The notes under the pieces are model-generated. The model made no database searches. It saw nothing but the letters and a program-made list of their open reading frames with translations, and was not told where the DNA came from. Positions 4,479 through 17,904 of a DNA stretch of 64,000 nucleotides are shown in pieces; the stretch's first letter is position 1, and every line of letters starts with the position of its first letter. This DNA comes from Phenylobacterium sp. J426 (GTDB lineage: Bacteria > Pseudomonadota > Alphaproteobacteria > Caulobacterales > Caulobacteraceae): assembly GCF_024699945.1 (NCBI RefSeq), contig NZ_JAJOMY010000001.1:62001-126000 (forward strand), written 5' to 3'. The position numbers and the translations under genes are program-made.

Positions 4479-5242
4479 CCCGCCCGGGCCCGTGCGTTCG
4501 GCGTGAAGCGGGCGGTCAGGTCGTAGAGCTGGCCGGGGAAGGTGAGGCGCACCTGGGTGATGCTGTCGGCGTTTCGCCACGTGCGGCGCTCCAGCACGAG
4601 GCAGGCGGCGCCGGCGTCGATCTGCAGGCTGGCCGCCGCCGTGCGCTGCGCATTCGCGGCGCTGATGCGGTGCTCTGCCTCCGTCCAGGGCACGTGGCCC
4701 AGCAGCCAGGTCCCTGGAGAGACCGTCGCGAAATCGACGTCCGCCGCTTCCCCGAGGGCGCGCAGGTTGATCAGCCGTTCCTCGAGCGCGAAAGGCTGGC
4801 CGCCGGCCCAATGCAGGCACCTGAGCGCCAGGACCTCGACCACGCCTTTGACGTCGAGGGCGACGAGGTCCTGCGCGTCCGCCTTGCGCACCTGCCGGCT
4901 CAGCAGTTCATAGCCGTAGGTCTCGCCGCGCGACCGCACCTCCACGGCGATGTCCGGGATGTCGAGGACCACGGAGTGGATCTTCGGGAAGGCGACGAAC
5001 GATCCCGCCTTTCGCCGCCGGACGATCAGTCCGCTCTCGGCCAACGGCGCCAGCGCCTTGTTCACCGTCGCGCGCGAGCAGCCGTAGGCCTCCATCAGCT
5101 CGTGCTCGACGGGCAGCCGCCGCCCGGGCGGCCACTCGCCGGAGCGGATGCGGTCGACGATCGCGTCCCGGATCCGCAGGTGGAGCGCCGGCTCCTGGAG
5201 CTCGCCGGCGCGCGGCGGCGGCTCGCGGCCGCTACCGTCCAC
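4475..5242 (-). CDS. GntR family transcriptional regulator, HutC subfamily (UTRA domain)
   Basis: 255 residues, GTG start at 5242. The N-terminal winged helix (residues about 20-90) contains GEWPPGRRLPVEHELMEAYG and CSRATVNKALAPLAESGLI, the GntR signature. The remainder is a UTRA ligand-binding domain, ending VRLTFPGQLYDLTARFTP as in HutC proteins. HutC itself represses histidine utilisation in response to urocanate, but no hut enzyme is visible here, so I do not assign hutC. It is the last gene of the TonB receptor/peptidase/PepSY operon, overlapping the preceding gene by 11 bases. It probably regulates that operon through the site at 10558-10567. Confidence 0.88.
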   Translation of the reverse strand: MDGSGREPPPRAGELQEPALHLRIRDAIVDRIRSGEWPPGRRLPVEHELMEAYGCSRATVNKALAPLAESGLIVRRRKAGSFVAFPKIHSVVLDIPDIAVEVRSRGETYGYELLSRQVRKADAQDLVALDVKGVVEVLALRCLHWAGGQPFALEERLINLRALGEAADVDFATVSPGTWLLGHVPWTEAEHRISAANAQRTAAASLQIDAGAACLVLERRTWRNADSITQVRLTFPGQLYDLTARFTPNARARAG

Positions 5243-6716: not shown

Positions 6717-7727
6717 CTACCAGTTCGGGTCCATGGCCGAGCGGCCCGGAAAGCGGACGACCTTGTCGCCGTAGAGGGGGTCGTAATAGTGCCCGCCCTC
6801 CTTGTAGTCGGGGTTCCAGGCCTTTGAGCCGTCGGCGCGCAGGCGATACACGAACGGCGAAAGGAGCAGCCGCTCGCGGTGCCAGCGCCCGTCGGCGCCC
6901 GCCGGGATGTCCTCGCCGGCGCCGTACAGCATCAGCCCGCCCTCGGCGAAGACCTCGTGCGCGGGGTCAACGTCTCTGTACTCGTGGCTGACGTTCATGA
7001 CCTTGTGGCCGATCTCGTGGGCCACGGTCCGCCGCTGGCGGCTGGGCGACGAAAGGTTGGTGATGGTGATCACCCCGCGCAGCCGCGGCGGCAGCGTCCG
7101 GTAGTAGGAGTAGGCCGGGAACGACAGGCCTCCGGTGCGAACCATCTTGATCGTCCAGTTCCGCCCTTCAGCCGGCTCGACGAACGGGAAGATCACGTCC
7201 TGTAGCGCGATCAGATAGAGCGTCCTGGCATTGTCGGCGTCGGGCTCGACGATGCTCTCGAAGGCGCCGAGCGCCATTTGCGTCGGCACGGTCGGGTGGC
7301 GCCGGCTGGCTTCATAGGTGTTGACGTACTCGGTGTCCGGCACGCCGGGGATTTCGTTGGACTGGATCGCCAGAAGCCGTGGATCGACAGCGCCGGTCTT
7401 GACCCACAGCAGGTGGATCTGCACCCCCGCCCGCCCATAGATCTGCTTCGCGGCGCGCACCGCTTCGAGCATCCGCGGCAAGCTGACCTTATCGAAGCCG
7501 GGATCGAAGTTGGACGGCAGATAGACCGCGACGTCGATCGTGGGACGGCCTGCCACCAGATCGCGGTTCATCGCGTCCACGTCAGCGGACGCGATCTCCC
7601 TCCAGGCCACCGGCGCGACCCGCTCGCGCGTCGGATGCGCCGCCGCCGCCCCATGCAGGGTCGCCCCCGCGAGCAGGGCCAGCGCGGATGCGCGGGCTCG
7701 GGTCTTCAGCGTGGCGGCGAGGCTCAC
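6717..7727 (-). CDS. Secreted putative zinc metallopeptidase
   Basis: 336 residues, GTG start at 7727. The N-terminal signal peptide includes ASALALLAGATLHGAAAAHP. A zinc-type motif VAHEIGHKVMNVSHEY lies about two thirds along, giving HExxH followed by a third His after six residues. Metzincins have five (HExxHxxGxxH), so this may be a different clan or an unusual spacing. A downstream Glu in AHEVFAEGGLMLYG could complete a site. The gene lies between a TonB receptor and two PepSY proteins in one operon, so a periplasmic peptidase that processes imported substrate is a reasonable inference. I do not recognise the exact family. Confidence 0.65.
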   Translation of the reverse strand: MSLAATLKTRARASALALLAGATLHGAAAAHPTRERVAPVAWREIASADVDAMNRDLVAGRPTIDVAVYLPSNFDPGFDKVSLPRMLEAVRAAKQIYGRAGVQIHLLWVKTGAVDPRLLAIQSNEIPGVPDTEYVNTYEASRRHPTVPTQMALGAFESIVEPDADNARTLYLIALQDVIFPFVEPAEGRNWTIKMVRTGGLSFPAYSYYRTLPPRLRGVITITNLSSPSRQRRTVAHEIGHKVMNVSHEYRDVDPAHEVFAEGGLMLYGAGEDIPAGADGRWHRERLLLSPFVYRLRADGSKAWNPDYKEGGHYYDPLYGDKVVRFPGRSAMDPNW

Positions 7728-7793
7728 GGTCCTGTCCTCATATCGGGAGAAGGAAGGGCCGGCGGGCGCGTGGGGTCGCCCGCCGGCCGCCGG

Positions 7794-10457
7794 CTAGAAC
7801 GAGTACGACAGCCGGACGTAGCCCCTGCGACCCAGCAGGTCGTAGGTCATGGTGTCGGTGTTCCCGTCCGTGTAGCTGGCGATGTACGGGACGTCGGGCT
7901 CGAAGATGTTGTCGACGCCGATCGCCACGCGGGCCTGGTCGCTCACCCGGTACTGGAACTGAGCATTGTTGTAGAAGACATCGCTGGTCTTGCCGCCGAC
8001 GGCCGTGGGCGCCGCGTTGAAGTCGCGGGCCTTGCCGATCCATTGCACGGACCAGGTGGCGCTCCACTTCGGATCGTCCAGCGAGAAGGTCGCCAGGCCG
8101 CGCCACTTCGGGTAACCGCCGTTCCCGCCGCCGATGAAGCCGCGGTAGATGATCGGCGCCCCGCCCGGATACGGAATGATGGTGTAGTCCTTCAGGTAGG
8201 TCACGCCGGCGTCGATCGAAGCCCGAACGCCCCGCACGTCCCAGCCATAGCGGACGGCAGCATCGATACCCTTCACGGTCTCGGCGCCGACGTTCACCTG
8301 CTGCGAGGACAGGAAGCTCACCTCGCCCGTCAGGCTGTTGCGGGTGAAGTTCTCAGGCCCGCAGAACGGGTGCGCGAGGTTCGGGGTGTTGTAGCAGACC
8401 GACAGCTTCGTCGAGCCCGGGATCGAGCGGATGGCGTTGTCGATCTCGATGGTCCAGTAGTCCAGCGTCAGGGCCAGGCCCGGCGCGAACTCCGGCTCCC
8501 AGACCGCGCCGATCGTCAGGGTCTCGGCCGTCTCCGGCCTCAGGTTCTCGTTGCCGCCGGTGGTCGTCAGGATGGTGTTGTTCGGCTGGATGTAGTTGGC
8601 CGGAACACCCGCGGCCTGGCAGTTGGCCCGCAGCGTCGCGTTCGTGCTCGTGCTGTAGCGGCTGCAAGGATCGGTGGTCGTCAGGTTGCCCTGGGTCAGC
8701 CCGCTGAACAGCTCGGCCACGTTCGGCACCCGGAACGCGGTGCCCCAGGTGGCGCGGGCGCGCAGGCCCCAGCCCAGCGTCCAGTCCAGGCCAAGCTTGT
8801 AGTTCGTGTCGCTGCCGAACTTCTTGTAGTCCGAGTAACGGATCGCCCCGTCGAGACGGACCATCTCCATCAGCGGCAGGTCGCGGACGACCGGAACGCT
8901 GACTTCCGCATAGGCTTCCTTGGCCTTGATCGAGCCGTCGATTGGGCTCTGCTGGTTGGAGTTGGCGATGCCGGCGACGATCAGCGGGTCCGGATCGCGC
9001 CAGCCCTTGTCCTCGCGGTACATGAGGCCGGCGGCGACCTGCAGCGGCCCGGCCGGCAGCTCGAACAGGCTGCCGGTCACGTCGCCGGTGACATTCATGG
9101 TCTCGTTGCCGCCGTGGTCGACGGTCGTGGTCAGGATGTAGTTGACCACCTGCGGCGTCACGTCGCCCGCGCCCAGGTAGTCGGCGCAGGGAATGGCCGC
9201 GCCGGCGGCGAAGCTGCAGACGGCGGTGTTGATGGTGTTGGCCACCCGCTGCCGGTTGGCGATGTTGGTGAAGCCGTCGATGCCTTCGTTGCGGCCCCAG
9301 TTGGCGGCCACTTCCCAGGTCCAGTCGCCGGCGAACTTGCCGCGGGCGCCGCCGGTCACCTGATAGGTGTCGGTCTCCTGGAAGGCCATCCGCGGACCGC
9401 CTTCGACCAGGCGGCGTTGGATGACGTTGATGTTCTGGCCCGTCGGATTGGTCGGGTTCGAGGCGGCGATCGCCAGGTTGGTCAGCGTGCCCGGGGCCGA
9501 GAGCTGCTCGGTCTCGCGCCAGGTATAGAGGGCCTCGGCGAACACCTCGACGCTGTCGGTCAGGTCATACTTGCCGAAGGCGCCGGTCGTGACCCGGTGG
9601 ATCGGGTTCACCGCATTGATGTACGGGTTGCCGTTGTAGCCGTGCAGGGCCGCCGAATAGGGCGCGTAGCTGTTGCCGCCCGTGAAGTTGATCACCTGGC
9701 CGTTCGGCAGCGAGGCGCGGCCGCCGGCCGTCGACCCGCTGCCCGAGCAGAGCAGCTGGCCGCTGGCGCCGCTCAGCCCGCAAGGGGCGCGGGTCGCCAT
9801 GTTGACGGCATCCGTCTTCTGCCAGGTCGCCGCCACGGCGAAACTGCCGCGTTCACCCTGCCAGCCGTAGGACGCGTCCACCGTCCGATCGTCGCCGTCC
9901 CATTCGTCGGTGATCGCGTACCGGGCGGAGATGTCGAAGCCGTCGTAGTTGTCGCGGGTGATGATGTTGACCACGCCCGCCACGGCGTCGGTGCCGTAGA
10001 CCGCCGAGGCGCCGTCCTTCAGCACTTCGATCCGACCGATGATGGCCGTCGGGATGGTGTTGAGGTCGGGCGCGCTGTTGGCGCCGGTGCCGCCGTTCAC
10101 CAGACGCCGTCCGTTGAGCAGGACGAGGGTGCGGTTGATGCCCAGGCCGCGCAGGTTGATCGTGGCCGTGCCCCAGCCGCGCGAGCTCCAGTAGGCGTTC
10201 GTCTGGTTGCCGCCGAAGCCGGCGGCGGCCGGCAGCCGCTGCAGCAGGTTCTCGACGTTGGCGATGCCGGTGGCGGCGATTTCCTTCTGGCCGACAACGG
10301 TCACCGGGCCCACGCCCTCGATGTCGGCGCGCTTGATGCGGCTGCCCGTGACGATGACCTCGTCGACCGCGCCCTGTTCCTGCGCCTGCGCGGCGCCGCC
10401 CAGACCGACCGCGGCGCAAGCGCTCGCGAACAGAAGGCCTTTGGAGAACCTGTTCAT
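7794..10457 (-). CDS. TonB-dependent outer membrane receptor
   Basis: 887 residues with a signal peptide ending QAQEQ. The TonB box DEVIVTGSRI comes next, then the plug domain (residues about 45-170) with LRGLGINRTLVLLNGRR and VLKDGASAVYGTDAVAGVVN. The remainder is a 22-strand-type barrel ending in the aromatic terminus RLSYSF. A full-length, intact reading frame. The plug style is typical of the large Caulobacterales receptors for carbohydrates, peptides or other nutrients, and the ligand is not predictable. It is the first gene of an operon leading to a peptidase, two PepSY proteins and a HutC-type regulator. The ribosome site is AAGGGGG just before the ATG. Confidence 0.92.
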   Translation of the reverse strand: MNRFSKGLLFASACAAVGLGGAAQAQEQGAVDEVIVTGSRIKRADIEGVGPVTVVGQKEIAATGIANVENLLQRLPAAAGFGGNQTNAYWSSRGWGTATINLRGLGINRTLVLLNGRRLVNGGTGANSAPDLNTIPTAIIGRIEVLKDGASAVYGTDAVAGVVNIITRDNYDGFDISARYAITDEWDGDDRTVDASYGWQGERGSFAVAATWQKTDAVNMATRAPCGLSGASGQLLCSGSGSTAGGRASLPNGQVINFTGGNSYAPYSAALHGYNGNPYINAVNPIHRVTTGAFGKYDLTDSVEVFAEALYTWRETEQLSAPGTLTNLAIAASNPTNPTGQNINVIQRRLVEGGPRMAFQETDTYQVTGGARGKFAGDWTWEVAANWGRNEGIDGFTNIANRQRVANTINTAVCSFAAGAAIPCADYLGAGDVTPQVVNYILTTTVDHGGNETMNVTGDVTGSLFELPAGPLQVAAGLMYREDKGWRDPDPLIVAGIANSNQQSPIDGSIKAKEAYAEVSVPVVRDLPLMEMVRLDGAIRYSDYKKFGSDTNYKLGLDWTLGWGLRARATWGTAFRVPNVAELFSGLTQGNLTTTDPCSRYSTSTNATLRANCQAAGVPANYIQPNNTILTTTGGNENLRPETAETLTIGAVWEPEFAPGLALTLDYWTIEIDNAIRSIPGSTKLSVCYNTPNLAHPFCGPENFTRNSLTGEVSFLSSQQVNVGAETVKGIDAAVRYGWDVRGVRASIDAGVTYLKDYTIIPYPGGAPIIYRGFIGGGNGGYPKWRGLATFSLDDPKWSATWSVQWIGKARDFNAAPTAVGGKTSDVFYNNAQFQYRVSDQARVAIGVDNIFEPDVPYIASYTDGNTDTMTYDLLGRRGYVRLSYSF

Positions 10458-11053
10458 GACTACCCCCTTCTTGTCCCGGCTCCGCAGGGCGTCGGGATAC
10501 GACGCAGACGGAACGGTCGGCCGGAAACTCGGGGCGGAGGCCGCGCCCTGTCAATAATGTCTACACATAACCGCCGGAATTTCAGGGGCATGAAATTTCG
10601 CAGTCCGGTGCAAATGGGTCGAAACGCGCCCGATTAGGACCTGATACTCCCACCGAATTCCTTCCGCGCGAGCAAACGAGGGAATCCGTTGGTTATTTTT
10701 TGTCGTCAGATAGCAATCGGTTCTGGGTGCGCGATGACGTCGGGTTAATCACGAGATGTACTATGTGTAAGCGAACTCCGGCCTAGCTCACGACCGTCTT
10801 TGCCCAGCCGACACTGCGATCAGCACTTCGCGCCTACACAACCTGACGGCGAATGGTTTCAGGCGTTACTTCATCGCGCCTGCGCTGGCGCGAACAAATA
10901 CCTGATGCCGCCAGGCGAAATCGCAGACTGGCGGCACGAAGGACGGGCGAGGCGCCGCGACGATCGGGTGCTATAGACCGATACGCGCCCGTACCACGCA
11001 GCCCTCACAAAAAATGGCGCGCCGCGGCTCTGTCTCCTCGACGCGCCGCAACG
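10458..11053. other. Intergenic region between TonB receptor start and cusF-like gene end (no gene seen)
   Basis: About 600 bases without a convincing coding frame. It is the most A+T-rich stretch in the first 15 kb, especially 10550-10620 and 10680-10770. It holds the receptor operon's upstream signals, including the candidate operator at 10558-10567 and TTGACA on the minus strand. I see no tRNA, no clear riboswitch and no strong terminator. Confidence 0.5.
10558..10567. promoter_or_regulatory. Candidate HutC-type operator upstream of the TonB receptor operon
   Basis: TGTCTACACA contains GT-C-TA-C-AC. It fits GT-N1-TA-N1-AC, the half-site arrangement described for operators of the HutC subfamily of GntR regulators. 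It lies about 100 bases upstream of the receptor start, close to a consensus-like minus-strand TTGACA (tgtcaa at 10549-10554). The operon encodes a HutC-type regulator as its last gene, so autoregulation is a natural reading. The core is only six fixed bases, so a chance match cannot be excluded. Confidence 0.45.
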
Positions 11054-11377
11054 CTACTGCTTGCGGATCGCGACGATCTGCTGGCCCTTGAGGGTGAAGC
11101 TCACCTTGTCGCCGGCGGAGAGGCCCTTCAGCGCGGCCGGATCGGCCTTGAACGCCATGGTCATGGCGCCCCAGTTCAGCGCCTTGATCGGCTCGTGGGC
11201 GATGGTCACCGACCCGGCCCGGACGTCGATCGCCTTCACGACGCCCTGCCCCTGGGCATTGGCCGCGGCCGGCGCAGCATGACCCGAATGAGCGCCGTGA
11301 TCGTGCGACTGCGCCATGGCCGGGGCCTGGGTGGCGGCGAGGGCGAGGCCGCCCACGAGGGCGATTGCGAACTTCAT
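11054..11377 (-). CDS. cusF: CusF/CopK-like periplasmic copper-binding protein
   Basis: 107 residues from ATG 11377, with AGGAG upstream. A signal peptide (MKFAIALVGGLALAATQAPAMA) is followed by a His-rich linker (HDHGAHSGH) and the CusF OB-fold domain. The copper site is readable: IAHEPIKALNWGAMTMAF, giving the His, the Trp and the two Met (W-x-x-M-x-M) that bind Cu(I) in CusF. It lies 25 bases after copB and is probably cotranscribed. In E. coli CusF shuttles Cu(I) in the periplasm to the CusCBA pump; no CusABC genes are in this window, so it may act with CopA/CopB here. Confidence 0.88.
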   Translation of the reverse strand: MKFAIALVGGLALAATQAPAMAQSHDHGAHSGHAAPAAANAQGQGVVKAIDVRAGSVTIAHEPIKALNWGAMTMAFKADPAALKGLSAGDKVSFTLKGQQIVAIRKQ

Positions 11378-11402
11378 AAGCGTACTCCTGAACAAGGGAA
11401 TC

Positions 11403-12557
11403 TCAGAACCAGGCGCGCAGCCCGAGGACGACTCGGGTGTCCTCGATGTCGTCGCCGTGGGCGCGGGCGAAGTCGGCCGTGTCGCCGAACTTCCGCTCAT
11501 AGTGGAGGCCAACATAGGGGGCGAACTCCTGGCGGATCGCGTAGCGGAGCCGAAGCCCCAGTTCCACGTCCTGCAGCCCGGAGCCCAGTTCCAGCGCCCG
11601 GTCGGCGCTGGCCGCCAGGTTGGCTTCCACGCGCGGCTCAAGGATCAGCTTCTGGGTGAGCCGAAGATCGTACGAGCCCTCCAGCCGCGCCGAGAGGTCT
11701 CCCTTTTCCGACAGGAACAGGGCGCCGCCCACCTCGAACCAGTAGGGCGCCACGCCCTCTAGGCCGATGGTGGCATAGGTCCGCTGCGGCCCAGGCTCGA
11801 AGTCATGGCGCACGCCCGCCTGCAGGTTGAAATAGGGCCCGATGGCGCGGCGATACAGCGCCTGAACCTCGGCGCTCTCGAGCTCGCCGTCGTGGCTTTC
11901 GCCCTCCGTCTTCAAGGCGAAGCGATTGATGTCGCCGCCGTAGGAGGCCTCGCCTTCCCAGGCCCAGACGTCTCCGCCGGCGCCGGGGCGCACCTCGGCC
12001 GTCTCGAGCATGACCTTGGACCACCGCATGTCGCCATGTTCGCGCCGCAACAGCGCGCGGGCGCGGGCCATGTCGCCGGGCGCGAAGATCCGGTCCGCGG
12101 CGTAGTCGGTCGGCGCCTCGGGCGGTGGCGCATTGCCCGCCGGCAGCGTCTGCATCACGTGGTCGGCGCCATGGCTCGATCCATGCCCTGCATGCGGATC
12201 GGCGGCGCCGTGGCCGGCATGGGGATCGGCTGACGCCCCGTGCGCCGCGTGCGGGTCCGACGGGGCATGAGCCCCATGTCCGGCGTGCGGATCAGCCGGC
12301 ATGGCGTGGCCCGCGTGGGGATCATTGGCCGCCGGCGCAGCATGACCGGCGTGCGGGTCCGTTGGCGCTGGCTGACGGGGCATGGCGTGACCGGCGTGCG
12401 GATCGGCCGGAGCCCGATGACCGGCATGGGGATCCGCTGCGGCAGGCGCAGGCTGCGCCGAGGGGCCATGCTGATGATGGGCGTGCGGGTCCTGCGCCCA
12501 GGCGGCGGAGGCGGCGAGCGCCAGCGGCGCCGTGGCGGCGATCAGCAGGCGCTTCAT
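11403..12557 (-). CDS. copB: CopB family outer membrane copper resistance protein with His-rich repeats
   Basis: 384 residues, ATG at 12557, which overlaps the end of copA (ATGA). After the signal peptide comes a repeat region (residues about 22-140) with nine DPHA(G/H/A)H units separated by Ala/Pro-rich spacers. Such His clusters can bind copper ions. The remaining 230 residues are the CopB beta-barrel domain, ending RVVLGLRAWF with an aromatic terminus. CopB works with the multicopper oxidase CopA in outer-membrane/periplasmic copper tolerance. A single open frame appears to run from copA into copB, but that is a product of the copA frame break, not a natural fusion. Confidence 0.9.
   Translation of the reverse strand: MKRLLIAATAPLALAASAAWAQDPHAHHQHGPSAQPAPAAADPHAGHRAPADPHAGHAMPRQPAPTDPHAGHAAPAANDPHAGHAMPADPHAGHGAHAPSDPHAAHGASADPHAGHGAADPHAGHGSSHGADHVMQTLPAGNAPPPEAPTDYAADRIFAPGDMARARALLRREHGDMRWSKVMLETAEVRPGAGGDVWAWEGEASYGGDINRFALKTEGESHDGELESAEVQALYRRAIGPYFNLQAGVRHDFEPGPQRTYATIGLEGVAPYWFEVGGALFLSEKGDLSARLEGSYDLRLTQKLILEPRVEANLAASADRALELGSGLQDVELGLRLRYAIRQEFAPYVGLHYERKFGDTADFARAHGDDIEDTRVVLGLRAWF
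12167..12495 (-). repeat. Coding repeat: DPHAGH units within copB
   Basis: The minus strand encodes nine spaced copies of a hexapeptide, mostly DPHAGH (one DPHAHH, one DPHAAH). On the plus strand they appear as recurring gcgtgcgggtc- or gcatggggatc-like blocks. Spacing is irregular and the repeats are coding, so this is a protein tract, not a CRISPR or intergenic repeat. Confidence 0.85.
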
Positions 12558-14345
12558 TGCGCGCCTCCCTCGAGGGGACGGACGGTCACGACCCGGAACA
12601 TCCCCGCGTGCATGTGCAGCAGCATGTGACAATGGAAGGCCCAATCCCCCGGCTCGTTGGCGGTGAGGTCGAAGGACACCTTGCCGCCGGGGAGGACGTT
12701 GACGGTGTGCTTTCGCGGCTGGTGCGTCCCGTGACCGTTGACGATCTCGAAGAAGTGGCCGTGCAGGTGGATCGGGTGGGCCATCATGGTGTCGTTCACC
12801 AGCGTCACCCGCACGCGCTCGTTGAACCGGAACGGGAATCGGCTTGGTGTTCTCCGAATACTTCTCCCCGTCGAAGCCCCAGATGAACCGCTCCATGTTT
12901 CCCGTCAGGTGCAGCTCCAGCTCGCGCGACGGCGCACGGGGATCGACGTTCGGCGTCAGGGACATGAGGTCGGTGTAGGTGAGCACCTTGTGCGGGACGT
13001 TCTCCAGGCCCGTGCCGCGGTCCCCGACCCGGTCGACCGGCATCGGCGAGATCATCTGCACGCCCGGGGTCAGCTTGACCTGGGGCGCATTCTTCGGATC
13101 GCGCATCGCCATGGCCGAATGATCCATGGCCGATGCCTCGCCGGCCGCCGACGCGCCGCCGTGGCCGGCATGGGCGTCATGGCCGCCGCCTTGCGTCGCC
13201 CCATGGGCCGAATGATCCATGCCGCCCATGCCCATGTCCTTCATGGTCAGGATCGGCCGTTCGCGCAGCGGCGGGACCTCGGCCGTCATGCCGGCCCGCG
13301 GCGCCAGAGTCGCCCGCGCCATGCCCGATCGGTCGGAGCCTTCCGCGACGATGGTGAAGGCCCGATCCTCGGTGGGCGTGACGATGACGTCATAGGTCTC
13401 GGCGTTGGCGATCTGGAACTCGTCCACGGTCACCGGGCGCACGTCCTGGCCGTCGGCCTGCACCACCGTCATAGGCAGACCCGGGATCCGCACGTTGAAG
13501 ATGGTCATGGCGGCGGCGTTGACGAACCTGAGCCGCACCCGCTCGCCCGGCTTGAACAAAGCCGTCCAGTTGGACGCCGGCCCGTGTCCGTTGACGAGGT
13601 AGGTATAGGTCGAGCCGGTGACGTCGGCGATGTCGGTGGGGTCCATCAGCATCCGGGCCCACTCGACGCGGTCCTTCAGCGGCTGATCCTTGCCCGCAAG
13701 CAGGCCCGCAACCGTCTGCTTCTGGCGGTTGAAGAAGCCTGGCTGCTGCTTCAGCCGCGCCATGATCGTGTGCGGATGCATGAAGCTGTAGTCCGAGAGC
13801 ACGATCACATGCTCCCGGTCGTAGGGCGCTGGCTCAGCGCCCGCCGGATCGATCACCATCGGCGCATAGTGGCCGATCAGCTCCTGCAGGCCGGAATGCG
13901 AGTGGTACCAGTAGGTGCCTGCGTGGCGGACCTTGAACTCGTAGTTGAAGGTCTCGCCTGGCCGGATGCCGGGGAAGCTGACGCCCGGCACGCCGTCCAT
14001 CTGGAACGGCACCAGCAGGCCATGCCAGTGGATCGAGGTATCCTCGTCCGTCAGGTTGTTCGTAACCGCGATGCGGACGTCCTGGCCCTCTTTGAGGCGG
14101 ATGAGCGGGCCGGGCACCGTGCCGTTGATGGCGATCGCATGGCCCTTCCGGCCGTCCACCTGGAAAGGGGCATGGCCGATGTTCAACCGGATCTCGCCGC
14201 CCTCCAGCGCCGTGGGCCGCGGGCTCAGGCCCGGCGTCTGGCTCCGCGCCCAACTGGGCAGCAGCAGGCCGGCTCCGCCGAGGGCGCCCGCCGCGGCGGT
14301 CCGGCGCAGCACGTCGCGTCGGGATAGGTCATGTGGTCGATGCAT
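12554..14345 (-). CDS. copA: CopA family multicopper oxidase (frame break near 12840)
   Basis: About 596 residues when restored. The twin-arginine signal is SRRDVLRR. Cupredoxin domain 1 has SIHWHGLLVPFQMDGVPG and YWYHSHSG copper ligands. A Met/His-rich segment (MKDMGMGGMDHSAHG and AMDHSAMAM, residues about 365-415) follows. The C-terminal domain has HPIHLHGHFFEI and HCHMLLHMHAGMF, completing the type 1-3 sites. The last 95 codons are in a different frame. An extra base near 12838-12845 (around ATTCCCGTTCC, minus strand) breaks it, and the total length of 1792 bases is one more than a multiple of three. It probably oxidises periplasmic Cu(I) in copper tolerance. It is the first gene of copA-copB-cusF. 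Confidence 0.88.
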
Positions 14346-14421
14346 CTGCGGAGATCGGCCCTGGTCGAGAGGTCTTGGGGAGGGTCTCGGTCGCCGACAC
14401 CCTGGCCGGCGCTTCCTAGGT

Positions 14422-14449
14422 TACGCAGCCGGGGGCGCGAACCCTCATT
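14422..14449 (-). promoter_or_regulatory. Putative ECF sigma promoter upstream of copA
   Basis: On the minus strand AATGAGGG (14449-14442) and GCGTA (14426-14422) are separated by 15 bases. Exactly the same two elements with the same spacing occur upstream of the sigma-factor operon at 15797-15770. The upstream element overlaps the stop codon of the sigma gene, and the downstream element lies about 77 bases before the copA start. Confidence 0.6.
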
Positions 14450-15017
14450 CGACGCGGGCGTCCTTCAAGATTTCCGCCAGCCTCTGCCGGGCGCGGTAGG
14501 CGCGGGTCTCGATGGTCTTGACGCTGACGCCGAGGAGATCCGCCGCCTCCTGCTGGCTCATTTCGGCGAAGTAGGTGAGCAGCAGGGGCTCCTTCAGCTT
14601 GGCCGGCAGCCGCGCGATGGCCTGGTCGAGCCTGCGCCGCAGTTCCACCTCGGCAAGGGCCGCCTCGGGTGTGGCGCCGGGGTCCGGCGCGCGCATCGCT
14701 TCGGGACTGTCGGCGGAACGCTCGCCCAGTACGATCCGGCGCACGGCGAGCCTGCGCGCCCGGTCCCGGCACTTGTTCAGGGCGATGGCTCGCAGCCAGG
14801 TCGCGAACGGCCGACGCGCGTCGAAGCGGTCGAGCGCCCGCCACGCGGCGATGAAGGCCTCCTGGGTGAGCTCATAGGCGGTGTCGGCGTCGCCGATGTA
14901 GCGGCGCACGAAGCGGTACAGCGGCTCCTTGTGCCGCCGCATCAGGGCGGTGAAGGCGCGCTCCTCGCCGGCCACGGCGCGCTGGGCCAACGCCAGGTCG
15001 TCGTCGCCTTCCGTCAC
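14445..15017 (-). CDS. ECF sigma factor (CnrH-like)
   Basis: 190 residues from GTG 15017, which overlaps the stop of the upstream gene (GTGA). Sigma region 2 contains LTQEAFIAAWRALDRFD and RPFATWLRAIALNKCRDRARR. Region 4 contains LTYFAEMSQQEAADLLGVSVK and RAYRARQRLAEIL. It is nearly the same size as CnrH (191 aa from memory). It is third in an operon after a short membrane protein and a CnrX-like sensor, the same order as cnrYXH. The copper genes follow immediately, so it probably transcribes them through the motif at 14422-14449 and autoregulates at 15770-15797. Confidence 0.9.
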   Translation of the reverse strand: MTEGDDDLALAQRAVAGEERAFTALMRRHKEPLYRFVRRYIGDADTAYELTQEAFIAAWRALDRFDARRPFATWLRAIALNKCRDRARRLAVRRIVLGERSADSPEAMRAPDPGATPEAALAEVELRRRLDQAIARLPAKLKEPLLLTYFAEMSQQEAADLLGVSVKTIETRAYRARQRLAEILKDARVE

Positions 15018-15454
15018 GGCGCGGGCTGGGTGAGCGCCTCCGCGACGCGCGCGTCGAACTTGCGAGCCTGCTCGGGCGTCAGCACCTGCCGCATCGCCAG
15101 CACATGGACGATGGTCTCCTTCTGCAGTTCGCCCATCGCGTGGTGGAACCGCTCGACCGAGGCCTGCACCTCGGGCGAATACTCGTGCCTCGCCTGAATG
15201 GCGGCGGCGAGTTCGGCGTTGGCGGCCCGCAGTTCGGCCTCCCGCACCTTCCGGCGCACGGCGAAGTCCTGCTCCAGCCGCGCCAGCTGCGTCTCCTGGT
15301 CGTCCGTCAGCCGGATCTCCTTGTGCACGAACTCGTGCAGGGACGCCGGCGTACGCTTCGACTGCAGATAATGCACGGTGCAGAGCGCCCCCAGGGCGCC
15401 GGCCAGAGTCGTCAGCAGCAGCGTCAGCAGCAGTCCGCGGCTGACGCCTTTCAT
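15014..15454 (-). CDS. CnrX-like periplasmic metal sensor
   Basis: 146 residues: an N-terminal membrane anchor (GLLLTLLLTTLAGALGAL), then an all-helical periplasmic domain. The metal ligands known for CnrX (H42, H46, E63, H119, M123, from memory) have exact counterparts at H40, H44 (LHEFVH), E61, H117 and M121 (IVHVLAMRQVL), a constant offset of two. This is strong evidence for a CnrX/NccX-type sensor that relays metal binding to its membrane anti-sigma partner. Cnr senses Ni/Co, but the neighbours here are copper genes. It overlaps both flanking genes by four bases. Confidence 0.85.
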   Translation of the reverse strand: MKGVSRGLLLTLLLTTLAGALGALCTVHYLQSKRTPASLHEFVHKEIRLTDDQETQLARLEQDFAVRRKVREAELRAANAELAAAIQARHEYSPEVQASVERFHHAMGELQKETIVHVLAMRQVLTPEQARKFDARVAEALTQPAP

Positions 15455-15738
15455 CCGCGGCCCTCGAGGAGGGTCGACGGGGCAAGCTGGGGCCCAACCG
15501 AGAAGACCGAGATCTCATCGGCATGTGGCCGGGCCGACGCCGCCGCCAGGCCGCCGGTGGCCACGCCGAGGAACAGCGCGCCGACCACCGCCGCCGTCCG
15601 GAACGCAAAGACCGCTCCGCCACGCGTCTCGCCGTCGCGGTCCAGGCGCGCCCACACCGCCGGCTCGAGCTGGTCGAGGCGACGATCCGCGGGCTGGTGC
15701 TTCAGCGCCGCCAGCAGGTTATCTAGGCGATCCGCCAA
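15451..15738 (-). CDS. Small membrane anti-sigma factor (CnrY-like)
   Basis: 95 residues, from a TTG start at 15738 with GGGAG upstream. The N-terminal half is cytoplasmic and charged (LDNLLAALKHQPADRRLDQLE), suited to binding a sigma factor. A single membrane helix follows (FRTAAVVGALFLGVATGGLAA), then a short periplasmic tail. Size and position match CnrY, the 95-residue anti-sigma of the cnr system, although short anti-sigma factors diverge quickly and I identify it largely by context. It is the first gene of the operon that continues to the CnrX-like sensor and the ECF sigma factor. Confidence 0.72.
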   Translation of the reverse strand: MADRLDNLLAALKHQPADRRLDQLEPAVWARLDRDGETRGGAVFAFRTAAVVGALFLGVATGGLAAASARPHADEISVFSVGPQLAPSTLLEGRG

Positions 15739-15769
15739 GGGTGGCTCCCGCAGTCTGTTCGCTGGAGTA

Positions 15770-15797
15770 TACGCGCAACACCCTCGGGTCCCTCATT
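15770..15797 (-). promoter_or_regulatory. Putative ECF sigma promoter of the CnrYXH-like operon
   Basis: AATGAGGG (15797-15790) and GCGTA (15774-15770) on the minus strand with a 15-base spacer, identical in elements and spacing to the site before copA. The GCGTA element ends about 32 bases before the TTG start, giving a short leader. The spacers differ completely, so this is a conserved signal rather than duplicated DNA. Confidence 0.65.
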
Positions 15798-15824
15798 TCA
15801 GGGGCGATGACAAGCCGGCGCGTA
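15797..15824 (+). promoter_or_regulatory. Possible related promoter for the DUF411 gene
   Basis: On the plus strand TTCAGGGG (15797-15804), a 15-base spacer and GCGTA (15820-15824) lie about 33 bases before the DUF411 start. The downstream element and spacing equal those of the two minus-strand sites. The upstream element matches them only partly (AGGG core). It abuts the divergent promoter at 15770-15797. Confidence 0.4.
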
Positions 15825-15856
15825 TTTTGGGAAGCGTCGTCCAAGGAGAGGTGCGC

Positions 15857-16324
15857 ATGACCGATACGACCTGCCTGCTCAGCCGTCGTCGTCTGTGCCT
15901 GGCCGGAGCCGCCCTGCTCGCCGCCGGACCGGCCGTCGCCGCCCCCCGCGAGATCACGGTCTACAAGACGCCCTGGTGCGGCTGCTGCAAGGGCTGGATC
16001 ACGCACCTGACGCGCGCGGGCTTCCGCGCGAAGACCGTCGAGGTCGAGGATCTGGCGCCGATCCGCCAGAAGCACGGAATCCCCTTCCGCCTCTCGTCCT
16101 GCCACACAGGCGAAATTGCCGGCTATTTCGTCGAGGGCCATGTCCCGATCGCCGACGTCCAGCGGCTGCTGCGGGAGAGGCCGAAGGCGCTGGGCCTCAC
16201 GGTTCCCGGCATGCCGCTCGGATCGCCCGGCATGGAAAGCCGGGACGGCGCCCGGGAGGCCTACGAGACGCTGCTGGTGCTCGACCGCAAAGGCACGACC
16301 CGCGTCTTCGCACGCCATGGCTAG
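15857..16324 (+). CDS. DUF411 family copper-associated periplasmic protein
   Basis: 155 residues from ATG 15857, preceded by AAGGAGAG. The signal peptide contains RRRLCLAGAALLAAGPAVA. The DUF411 domain follows with VYKTPWCGCCKGWITHL (a C-x-C-C cluster), LSSCHTGEIAGYFVEGHVP and VPGMPLGSPGME. DUF411 proteins are found in metal-resistance loci and probably bind copper through these Cys and Met residues. The divergent CnrYXH-like operon and nearby copA/copB support a copper role. Longer in-frame extensions upstream overlap the opposing operon and are not coding. Confidence 0.88.
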   Translation: MTDTTCLLSRRRLCLAGAALLAAGPAVAAPREITVYKTPWCGCCKGWITHLTRAGFRAKTVEVEDLAPIRQKHGIPFRLSSCHTGEIAGYFVEGHVPIADVQRLLRERPKALGLTVPGMPLGSPGMESRDGAREAYETLLVLDRKGTTRVFARHG

Positions 16325-16343
16325 ACGCTGAGGAGCGGTCGTC

Positions 16344-16955
16344 ATGCCCGCGCCTGTCTTCGATGACCACATCCGCGATCTCGCGATCGTGGTGCTCGCC
16401 GGCGGCGAAGGCCGGCGGATGGGCGGCGGCAAGCCCCTTCGCGCCTTCGGCGGAACCAGCCTGATCGCTCACGCGGTCCACCTTGCCCGCCGCTGGTCGG
16501 GGCCGGTCGCAATCGCCGTGCGAGACGCCGCACAGCTGCCGGACGCGCCCGCGCCCGTCATCCTCGACGCAGAGGGCGTGGACGGCCCGGCGGCCGGCCT
16601 GCAGGCCGCCCTCGCCTTCGGCGTCGCTCAGCGCGCAGGGGCGGTGCTCACGATCCCCTGTGATACGCCGCACCTGCCCATCGATCTTGCTCCGCGCCTC
16701 AAAGCCGCGCTCACCCCGGCCTTCGGCTGCAGTCTTGCGGTCAGCGGCGGCCAGGCCCATCCGACCTGCGGCCTGTGGCGGACCGGCGCCGCAGGCCGGC
16801 TGGACGATTATCTTGCGGGCGGGCGGCGCTCATTGCGGGGTTTCGCCGCTGAACTCGGCGCCGCCTTCGTCGAATGGCCCCTGGTGGACGGCGCCGACCC
16901 GTTCGCCAACGCCAACACTCCCGAGGAGCTCGCGGCCCTCCAGCCGCGCGGGTGA
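16344..16955 (+). CDS. mobA: Molybdenum cofactor guanylyltransferase
   Basis: 203 residues, ATG at 16344 with AGGAG ten bases upstream. The nucleotidyltransferase P-loop-like start VVLAGGEGRRMGGGKPLRAF is the MobA signature. VDGPAAGLQAAL and TIPCDTPHLPIDL (the metal-binding Asp region) follow. MobA joins GMP to molybdopterin to make the bis-MGD used by DMSO reductase-family enzymes such as the FdhF/YdeP-type protein at 42917-45325; fdhD is also in the window. It starts 19 bases after the DUF411 gene and converges on the alpha/beta hydrolase gene. Confidence 0.9.
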   Translation: MPAPVFDDHIRDLAIVVLAGGEGRRMGGGKPLRAFGGTSLIAHAVHLARRWSGPVAIAVRDAAQLPDAPAPVILDAEGVDGPAAGLQAALAFGVAQRAGAVLTIPCDTPHLPIDLAPRLKAALTPAFGCSLAVSGGQAHPTCGLWRTGAAGRLDDYLAGGRRSLRGFAAELGAAFVEWPLVDGADPFANANTPEELAALQPRG

Positions 16956-16965
16956 GCCCGGACGG

Positions 16966-17904
16966 TCACGGGGCGAGACCCTCGAGAAAGATCGCCAGGT
17001 CGGTGGCGGTTCGGTCCGGCAGCTGCTCCATCGGCACATGACCGCCTTCGGGGTAGACGATCAATCGGGCGCCGGGGATCGCGCTGGCGAATCCCCGCTG
17101 GTTCTCCACCGGTATGATCTCATCCTTTGCACCGGCGAGGATGAGGGTCGGCGCGCGTATGGCGGCGAAGGTGGCCGGCGTGACCTGACGCTCGTCTGCG
17201 CGACGCGCGGTCAGGATGTCGCGGTGGCCGGGGGCGCGAGCGAGATCCACATAGCGGTCGACCAGTTCGTCGGTGACGAGCGCGGGCGCGCCATAGGCCT
17301 TCTCCAGCCCGTTTCGGGCCATCAGCGCAGGATCGACGTTCCGCAGCACAGCACGGCCCAGCGGGTTTCCGAGCAGTTGGAAGACGAGCGGCGGCGGGCC
17401 GCCGCTGCTCCGCGCGGGCCAGCCTGCGGCGTTCAATAGGACGAGGCCGCGCACGCGGTCGGGGTGGGCCAGGGCATAGGCCCAGGCGACACCGCCGCCC
17501 ATGGAGTTTCCCCCCACCACGAACCGGCCCACGCCCAGCCGGGCGGTCAGCTGATCGACGATCTCGACGCTCGCAGCGGTCGACGGGACGTAGGCCTGCG
17601 GAGCCCGCGTGAGCCCATGGCCGGGCAGATCTAAGGTGATGACGCGGTAGCGATCGGCCAGCCGACCTCGCCAGCGCTCCCAGGCATGGAGCGAGGCCGC
17701 GAAGCCGTGGATCAGCACGATCGCCGGCGCGTCGCGTGGCCCTTCGTCCCGGTAATGCAGGCGCACGCCATCGCTGAGGTCGACATACTGCGAACTGACC
17801 GAGGCGTACTTCGCTTCCAGCGCAGCGTAGGGGATATCGCGGGCGAGGCACCCCGAAAGCGCCGCCGCGGCGAGGCAAACCCATACGATCGCAATACGAC
17901 GCAT
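16966..17904 (-). CDS. Alpha/beta hydrolase lipoprotein
   Basis: 312 residues from ATG 17904 with GGGAGG upstream. The signal peptide ends in a lipobox (AAALSGC), so it should be membrane-anchored. The alpha/beta-hydrolase landmarks are complete: HGFAASLHAWERW (oxyanion region), the nucleophile elbow GGNSMGGG, an acidic residue in GAKDEIIPVE, and the His in EGGHVPMEQ. It is similar in layout to lipase/esterase or haloperoxidase-like hydrolases; the substrate is unknown. It is divergent from the HD-domain gene, with about 135 bases of shared promoter region. Confidence 0.87.
   Translation of the reverse strand: MRRIAIVWVCLAAAALSGCLARDIPYAALEAKYASVSSQYVDLSDGVRLHYRDEGPRDAPAIVLIHGFAASLHAWERWRGRLADRYRVITLDLPGHGLTRAPQAYVPSTAASVEIVDQLTARLGVGRFVVGGNSMGGGVAWAYALAHPDRVRGLVLLNAAGWPARSSGGPPPLVFQLLGNPLGRAVLRNVDPALMARNGLEKAYGAPALVTDELVDRYVDLARAPGHRDILTARRADERQVTPATFAAIRAPTLILAGAKDEIIPVENQRGFASAIPGARLIVYPEGGHVPMEQLPDRTATDLAIFLEGLAP

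Follow-up and report, generated by a model that had tools for sequence, protein, structure and literature searches.

A predicted CnrYXH-type sigma factor switch on copper resistance genes in Phenylobacterium sp. J426

In the 64,000-nucleotide stretch of the 4.64-Mb Phenylobacterium sp. J426 genome analysed here (the window, G000:C1:62001-126000), a set of three genes encoding a short membrane protein (Y), a CnrX-like sensor (X) and an extracytoplasmic function (ECF) sigma factor precedes a group of copper resistance genes. The order on the minus strand is Y, X, ECF sigma factor, copA, copB, cusF and a TonB-dependent receptor gene, and a DUF411 gene lies on the plus strand, divergent from Y (Table 1). 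We consider it probable that the three genes form a CnrYXH-type transmembrane sigma switch governing periplasmic copper defence. The parts of this proposal that derive from sequence are the homology of X and of the sigma factor, the predicted fold of X, the gene order, and a bipartite promoter motif with its spacing, its place and its co-occurrence with X. A previous reading of the DNA letters (the sequence-only reading) had described a 95-residue membrane protein, a CnrX-like protein and a sigma factor of CnrH size, followed by copA-copB-cusF instead of a cobalt/nickel pump; reading frames and domains bear out the former, and matches to TIGR01480, PF05275 and PF11604 the latter.

Related loci were collected from a scan of the genome_contigs collection (28 loci), annotated plasmid records (12) and searches of whole genomes (further loci). 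Removal of 18 loci with an identical X region reduced 135 X loci to 117, and later additions brought the set to 126, including the window (L055) and a second copy in the same genome (L058); near-copies were kept. Sixteen loci of the own genome that overlapped or had only the motif were dropped before counting, and the cut-off locus L035 was left out of the residue counts. Within the fetched stretches, which vary in length, 95 of the 126 loci have copA, copB or copC (copper-context loci), 15 have copper-accessory genes only, five carry a cnrC-like pump gene directly after the sigma gene (pump-linked loci), and no context was recognised in 11. The idea of a CnrYXH-type switch on copper genes, put forward in the sequence-only reading, is strongly supported by these counts. 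At E 1e-8, 5 of 385 alphaproteobacterial genomes from across the class (own genome included) contain X, as do 92 of 199 from the own family; the closest named relative is in Phenylobacterium sp. J367 (83% identity in the best segment).

For the sigma factor, which has a single Cys and ends after region 4, the top PDB sequence was CnrH (4cxf, E 2e-28). X is homologous to CnrX/NccX by sequence match. Y gave no Pfam or NCBIfam match in family-model searches; it is encoded first in the operon, and its size, its place and its tail motif fit a short single-pass CnrY-like anti-sigma factor. The tail, LAPSTLL, is kept in relatives (P87 in 99% and L91 in 93% of the copper-context and accessory rows), and CnrY ends in SPFGLLIG. 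The Y frames of relatives were chosen by their hydrophobic segment, so that the segment itself is no independent evidence.

The metal ligands of CnrX, which we take to be H42, H46, E63, H119 and M123, correspond to H40, H44, E61, H117 and M121 of X. This constant offset of two, noticed in the sequence-only reading, was confirmed by structural alignment, in which residues 37..143 of the predicted X model fall on residues 39..145 of 2y3d. E63 and M123 appear as mutated residues in the titles of CnrX entries in the PDB, and M123 is given as a ligand in the available text of one report (PMC7689651). Among the 95 copper-context X proteins the ligands are present in 90 (H40), 94 (H44), 95 (E61), 95 (H117) and 92 (M121).

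Two further residues separate the copper-linked from the pump-linked sensors. H104 together with M107 was found in all 95 copper-context X and in 14/14 copper-accessory X (one of the 15 is cut off), whereas all five pump-linked X have E104 and A107. The 11 loci without recognised context have H104 (6) or Q104 (5) and M107 (8) or V107 (3). Outside the ligands, invariant His, Met or Cys columns in the 109 copper-context and accessory rows are limited to H104 and M107. Protein searches gave the same division: H/M in 120/120 of the best-listed relatives of a copper-type profile (the best 120 of 734 matches) and E/A in all 64 CnrX relatives that cover positions 104 and 107 (65 found). These sequences carry no gene context and the 120-row residue counts speak for near relatives, with the 126 loci as the wider evidence. 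Position 74 is acidic in 85 of the 95 copper-context rows (R in 4), R in 5/5 pump-linked rows but R in only 42/64 of the wider CnrX set; an exchange of E74/H104 for R74/E104 is therefore no more than hinted at, with the register of 74 across from 104 taken from helix counting, not from coordinates.

The promoter motif was proposed from two places, upstream of the operon and upstream of copA, as AATGAGGG-N15-GCGTA. This form occurs exactly twice in the window, at these two sites, and both sites are real. The signal does not include the leading AA: in 150 relaxed sites from relatives, the two bases ahead of the T contribute no more than 0.19 and 0.10 bits, and the version with AA has a match in just 16 of the 171 loci fetched, some of these being overlapping copies of the window. 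The two-site description also missed a third exact copy of the core, TGAGGG-N15-GCGTA, in the gap that separates cusF from the TonB-dependent receptor, and a degenerate divergent site on the DUF411 side. At the copA site, the TGA of the -35 box doubles as the stop codon of the sigma gene. With up to three mismatches allowed, the window has no more matches than expected (9 versus 12.5), so it is no proof of the motif by itself, and the proof comes from the relatives.

Strict TGAGGG-N15/16-GCGTA lies within 230 nt upstream of Y on the sense strand in 52 of 116 loci and on the other strand in 21 of 116, and it is present in the gap between sigma gene and copA in 28 of 68 relatives. About 500 letter-permuted control patterns gave means of 0.018, 0.006 and 0.006 and maxima of 4, 1 and 1 for these three places (sense strand, other strand, copA gap). 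With the boxes fixed, a spacing of 15 accounts for 44, 15 and 28 loci and a spacing of 16 for 8, 6 and 0, and all other spacings from 10 to 21 give zero. A relaxed motif ([TC]GAGGG, [GTC]CGTA) was found before Y in 80 of the 120 loci outside the pump-linked group (non-RND loci; RND, resistance-nodulation-division) and in 51 of 74 sigma-copA gaps. The spacers are unrelated between sites, as had been noted for the two in the window: their letters are near background in the 150 relaxed sites (mean pairwise identity 0.32).

The motif also follows X across genomes. Of the 199 family genomes, 92 have X and together contain 312 strict sites (96 for the control pattern), against 136 (control 109) in the 107 that have no X; the excess in X-positive genomes is significant in a Mann-Whitney test that ignores kinship (p 2e-12), and control counts do not differ. 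Judging from these counts, the fixed spacing and the co-occurrence with X, the motif is almost certainly the recognition site of this sigma subgroup, as the sequence-only reading had supposed; conservation upstream of orthologues, on which it had staked this supposition, was found before both Y and copA. Spacing 16 occurs at the Y promoter in a minority of loci (L058, L064-L066, L067, L011, L013 and L046), and all strict copA sites have 15; the two spacings may mark two sigma specificities.

The own genome has eleven exact N15/16 sites, compared with three for a reversed control. Besides those before Y, before copA and between cusF and the receptor, they include sites before two copC genes (C1:420396 and C1:431781, with CopC domains) and an example of the back-to-back site pairs that occur, C1:440268/440297, between a second YXH operon and an acyltransferase gene. 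This second copper island encodes Y2, X2 (65-66% identical to X), a frame-broken sigma factor, copA, copB, DUF411 and more. Two exact sites lie shortly before further TonB receptors (C1:510373 in L006; C1:1254460 in L007, about 45 nt), in promoter-like positions. These two distal sites and those at C1:484451 and C3:32363 are not claimed for the regulon, four sites being about the number given by the reversed control.

In the proposed mechanism, X would be fixed in the inner membrane and act as a sensor in the periplasm, and Y, through its short cytoplasmic part, would tether the ECF sigma factor to the membrane. When copper, most probably Cu(II), is in excess in the periplasm, it would bind X, the change would be relayed to Y, and Y would release the sigma factor, which would then direct RNA polymerase to TGAGGG-N15(16)-GCGTA promoters. 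Its targets would be its own operon, in positive feedback, and copA-copB-cusF, probably also the neighbouring TonB receptor and DUF411 genes, and in the second island the two copC genes and the second YXH operon. The likelihood attached to each step is our own judgement. By homology with CnrYXH, we are very confident that the sigma factor controls copA and its own operon, and only slightly less so that it is bound and set free by Y and X in the CnrYXH manner. That copper is the main signal, as gene context and the H104/M107 pair suggest, is likely, with less assurance than either of these steps.

Several points weigh against this proposal. The switch is a prediction from sequence. The set of loci is biased towards copper-like X, the query having been a copper-like X, and retains near-copies. 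The strict motif is absent from 64 of the 116 upstream regions, and even under the relaxed definition roughly one non-RND locus in three has no site where it was looked for (40/120 before Y, 23/74 in the copA gap). The ligands vary in some copper-context X, with D40 in five, L44 in one and I121 in three. They are also those of the Ni/Co site of CnrX, so that the metal cannot be read from them. Finally, the H104/M107 contrast may be a single evolutionary event, because the pump-linked rows form one clade in a sigma tree (five rows, SH-like approximate likelihood ratio test 98), in which copper-linked rows fill most of the rest.

An alternative that we regard as unlikely keeps the copper genes under the switch and makes X a sensor of nickel, cobalt or zinc, or of several metals, in a general periplasmic metal alarm. 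It would account for the retention of all five Ni/Co ligands in nearly all copper-context X, and the fold alone does not discriminate, CnrX itself having a copper-bound crystal form (title of 3epv). RND-pump queries, moreover, hit somewhere in 20 of the 113 non-RND stretches, some of the hits coinciding with cusF. However, copper or copper-accessory genes are present in 110 of the 126 loci and a cnrC-like gene follows the sigma gene directly in only five, H104/M107 replace E/A in copper-context X, and a separate cnr-type lineage with its own cnrCBA-like pump exists in the same family (L143 and L145). The motif might instead be the operator of another copper regulator such as CueR or CopR, or a variant sigma-70 promoter, with YXH merely in the same regulon. 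A CueR-type gene is indeed present in some islands (L036, L038 and L045), but the two boxes at a fixed spacing of 15/16, on the sense strand and a few tens of nucleotides upstream of gene starts (31 and about 76 nt at the two window sites), the motif counts per genome that track X, and a sister motif in cnr promoter regions make this very improbable. The SigF motif, GTAACC-N16-CGAA in the available text of PMC3511200, is also different.

The locus might also be decaying, with the window cluster a relic and the second island doing the work. The copA frame breaks near 12,815-12,840, and the last cupredoxin domain (Cu-oxidase_2, 12554-12814) lies in another frame. Yet the adjoining reading frames, the sites and the ligands are intact, and both copA parts are well conserved compared with L008 (82% and 94%). 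A second frame break occurs in the same genome, in the sigma gene of the second island (L058, about position 5018); with that island broken too, assembly indels are suggested for both breaks, a true lesion also being possible. We give the relic scarcely more credit than a foreign operator.

Within the preferred reading of a copper-controlled CnrYXH-type switch, the residue pair may have a role of its own. Tentatively, and with somewhat less than even confidence, we suggest that H104 and M107 form or shape a copper-selective site. The copper-branch X would then combine the five-ligand Ni/Co site with H104-x-x-M107, 10-13 residues along the sensor helix, as a copper-selective second site or relay; this conceivably retuned the switch between Ni/Co and Cu, together with a promoter shift between CGAGGG-N16-CCGTA and TGAGGG-N15-GCGTA, in either direction, a scheme that we hold just as tentatively. 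The suggestion in the sequence-only reading that the sensor was recruited to copper is not supported as stated. The sigma tree was made by a quick method from 100 of 124 rows after thinning, and long branches meet at its root, so no claim is made on which metal came first; nickel/cobalt could equally be the derived use.

Table 1. Predicted features of the locus, numbered from the first letter of the window.
Feature	Position	Strand	Basis or remark
TonB-dependent receptor	7794..10457	-	Plug and beta-barrel domains
Third exact site, TGAGGG-N15-GCGTA, between cusF and TonB-dependent receptor	10982..11007	-	About 525 nt upstream of receptor start
cusF-like periplasmic copper-binding protein	11054..11377	-	PF11604, E 1e-23
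copB, outer-membrane copper resistance protein	11403..12557	-	PF05275, E 6e-84
copA/pcoA multicopper oxidase, broken frame	12554..14345	-	TIGR01480, 680 bits; Cu-oxidase_3, Cu-oxidase, Cu-oxidase_2
Predicted copA promoter, AATGAGGG-N15-GCGTA	14422..14449	-	About 76 nt upstream of copA start; in sigma-copA gap of relatives
CnrH-like ECF sigma factor, 190 aa	14445..15017	-	GTG start overlapping X stop; Sigma70_r2, Sigma70_r4_2
X, CnrX-like membrane-anchored periplasmic metal sensor, 146 aa	15014..15454	-	Ligands H40, H44, E61, H117, M121; extra H104, M107
Y, CnrY-like short membrane protein, predicted anti-sigma factor, 95 aa	15451..15738	-	TTG start; size, place, C-terminal tail
Predicted YXH operon promoter, AATGAGGG-N15-GCGTA	15770..15797	-	31 nt upstream of Y start; position shared by relatives
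Divergent degenerate site, TCAGGG-N16-GCGTA	15798..15824	+	One mismatch; upstream of DUF411, back to back with YXH promoter
DUF411 protein, divergent from YXH operon	15857..16324	+	PF04214, E 3e-26

The TonB-dependent receptor is possibly the last member of the copper regulon. It adjoins copper genes in L008, L012, L015 and L030, a 63% identical receptor is encoded in the second copper island, and the gap between cusF and the receptor also holds sites in L012 (N15) and L008 (N14). The leader from the third site to the receptor start (10458-10981) has similar lengths in L008 and L012, and its sequence is poorly conserved apart from short stretches near the start. No Rfam family was found at E 0.5 in window positions 7500-17500, hence none explains this long leader. 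On the DUF411 side, one-mismatch N16 matches number two in the window versus 1.0 expected, and the site is weak on its own.

Five of the 11 loci without recognised context (L142, L144, L146, L147 and L151) form a clade with a weak X that has few or no metal ligands, and all have Q104 and Y117. No copper query matched in their stretches; by Pfam, L146 has a flavokinase and a class I tRNA synthetase as neighbours, and L144 a TonB receptor. L146 and L147 keep a strict TGAGGG-N15-GCGTA upstream despite the ligand-poor X. Such CnrX relatives may sense something other than metal; they were retained in all counts. The other six context-less loci have H104/M107.

If the proposal holds, it provides a regulator, a promoter signal and a regulon readable from DNA for a large set of copper islands on alphaproteobacterial chromosomes and plasmids; we found no such regulator described for them. 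It also offers a natural experiment on how metals are told apart: of two sensor families that share their primary ligands, one stands by copper genes and the other by a nickel/cobalt-type pump. Two residues split these families without exception in the context-labelled sequences examined, and a copper response from a Ni/Co-site sensor becomes testable by exchange of the residues at 104 and 107. No copper-linked CnrYXH switch was found among the titles and beginnings of abstracts listed in literature searches; specialised ECF classification and review papers were not covered, and a prior mention is possible.

The closest known systems are CnrYXH and NccYXH of Cupriavidus metallidurans and relatives, which respond to nickel and cobalt. 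They share the Y-X-sigma order with overlapping or abutting genes, the protein sizes (95, 148 and 191 aa in L041, compared with 95, 146 and 190 here), the X fold, the metal ligands, the Y tail, and sites at the operon and directly after the sigma gene. They differ in the genes downstream, a cnrCBA-type RND pump there and copA-copB-cusF here, and in X, where H104, M107 and the glutamines of both LTxxQ motifs (Q53 and Q129) stand in place of E, A, E and H. The promoter is in the same two places with slightly different box letters and spacing, TGAGGG-N15-GCGTA here and CGAGGG-N16-[CT]CGTA in the Cnr type. The latter form precedes both cnrY and cnrC in L152 (CnrX 84% identical to that of L041) and in Cupriavidus sp. 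USMAA2-4 (L042); the C. metallidurans-type cnr locus (L041) has CGAGGG-N16-CCGTATA before cnrC and only a looser form in the cnrY region. According to the available text of PMC9045368, the starts cnrYp and cnrCp have been mapped and depend on CnrH. This picture has a gap: neither form turned up, where it was looked for, in L143 (genome G507) and L145 (G551), the two own-family loci that combine a cnr-type YXH with an RND pump. G551 also carries copper-type X copies.

Copper-linked ECF sigma factors of other kinds have been described, and what follows reflects the parts of these papers that were available. CorE of Myxococcus xanthus activates a multicopper oxidase gene (PMC10141476). It works without an anti-sigma factor and detects copper itself by a Cys-rich extension at its C terminus, whereas the sigma factor here has no such extension and is accompanied by X and Y. 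SigAb-AabA-AabB of Acinetobacter baumannii is stimulated by copper, and AabA was modelled on the sigma factor like CnrY; there, however, sigAb comes ahead of the genes for its two anti-sigma factors, metal genes are targeted only indirectly, and no CnrX-like sensor is described in that portion of the paper (PMC12153292). SigF-NrsF of Caulobacter crescentus, a close relative, is an ECF system induced by copper (PMC8224329), but it has another anti-sigma factor, its own motif (PMC3511200) and a regulon of other genes. In Caulobacter NA1000, pcoAB is induced by copper only under some conditions and the SigF regulon is common to all tested copper responses (PMC8224329), while strain K31 has a further copABCD cluster and withstands fivefold more copper (PMC4221894). 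Both the CnrYXH kind and copper-responsive ECF systems (CorE, SigAb, SigF) are thus known; what may be new is the predicted CnrYXH-type switch on copper genes.
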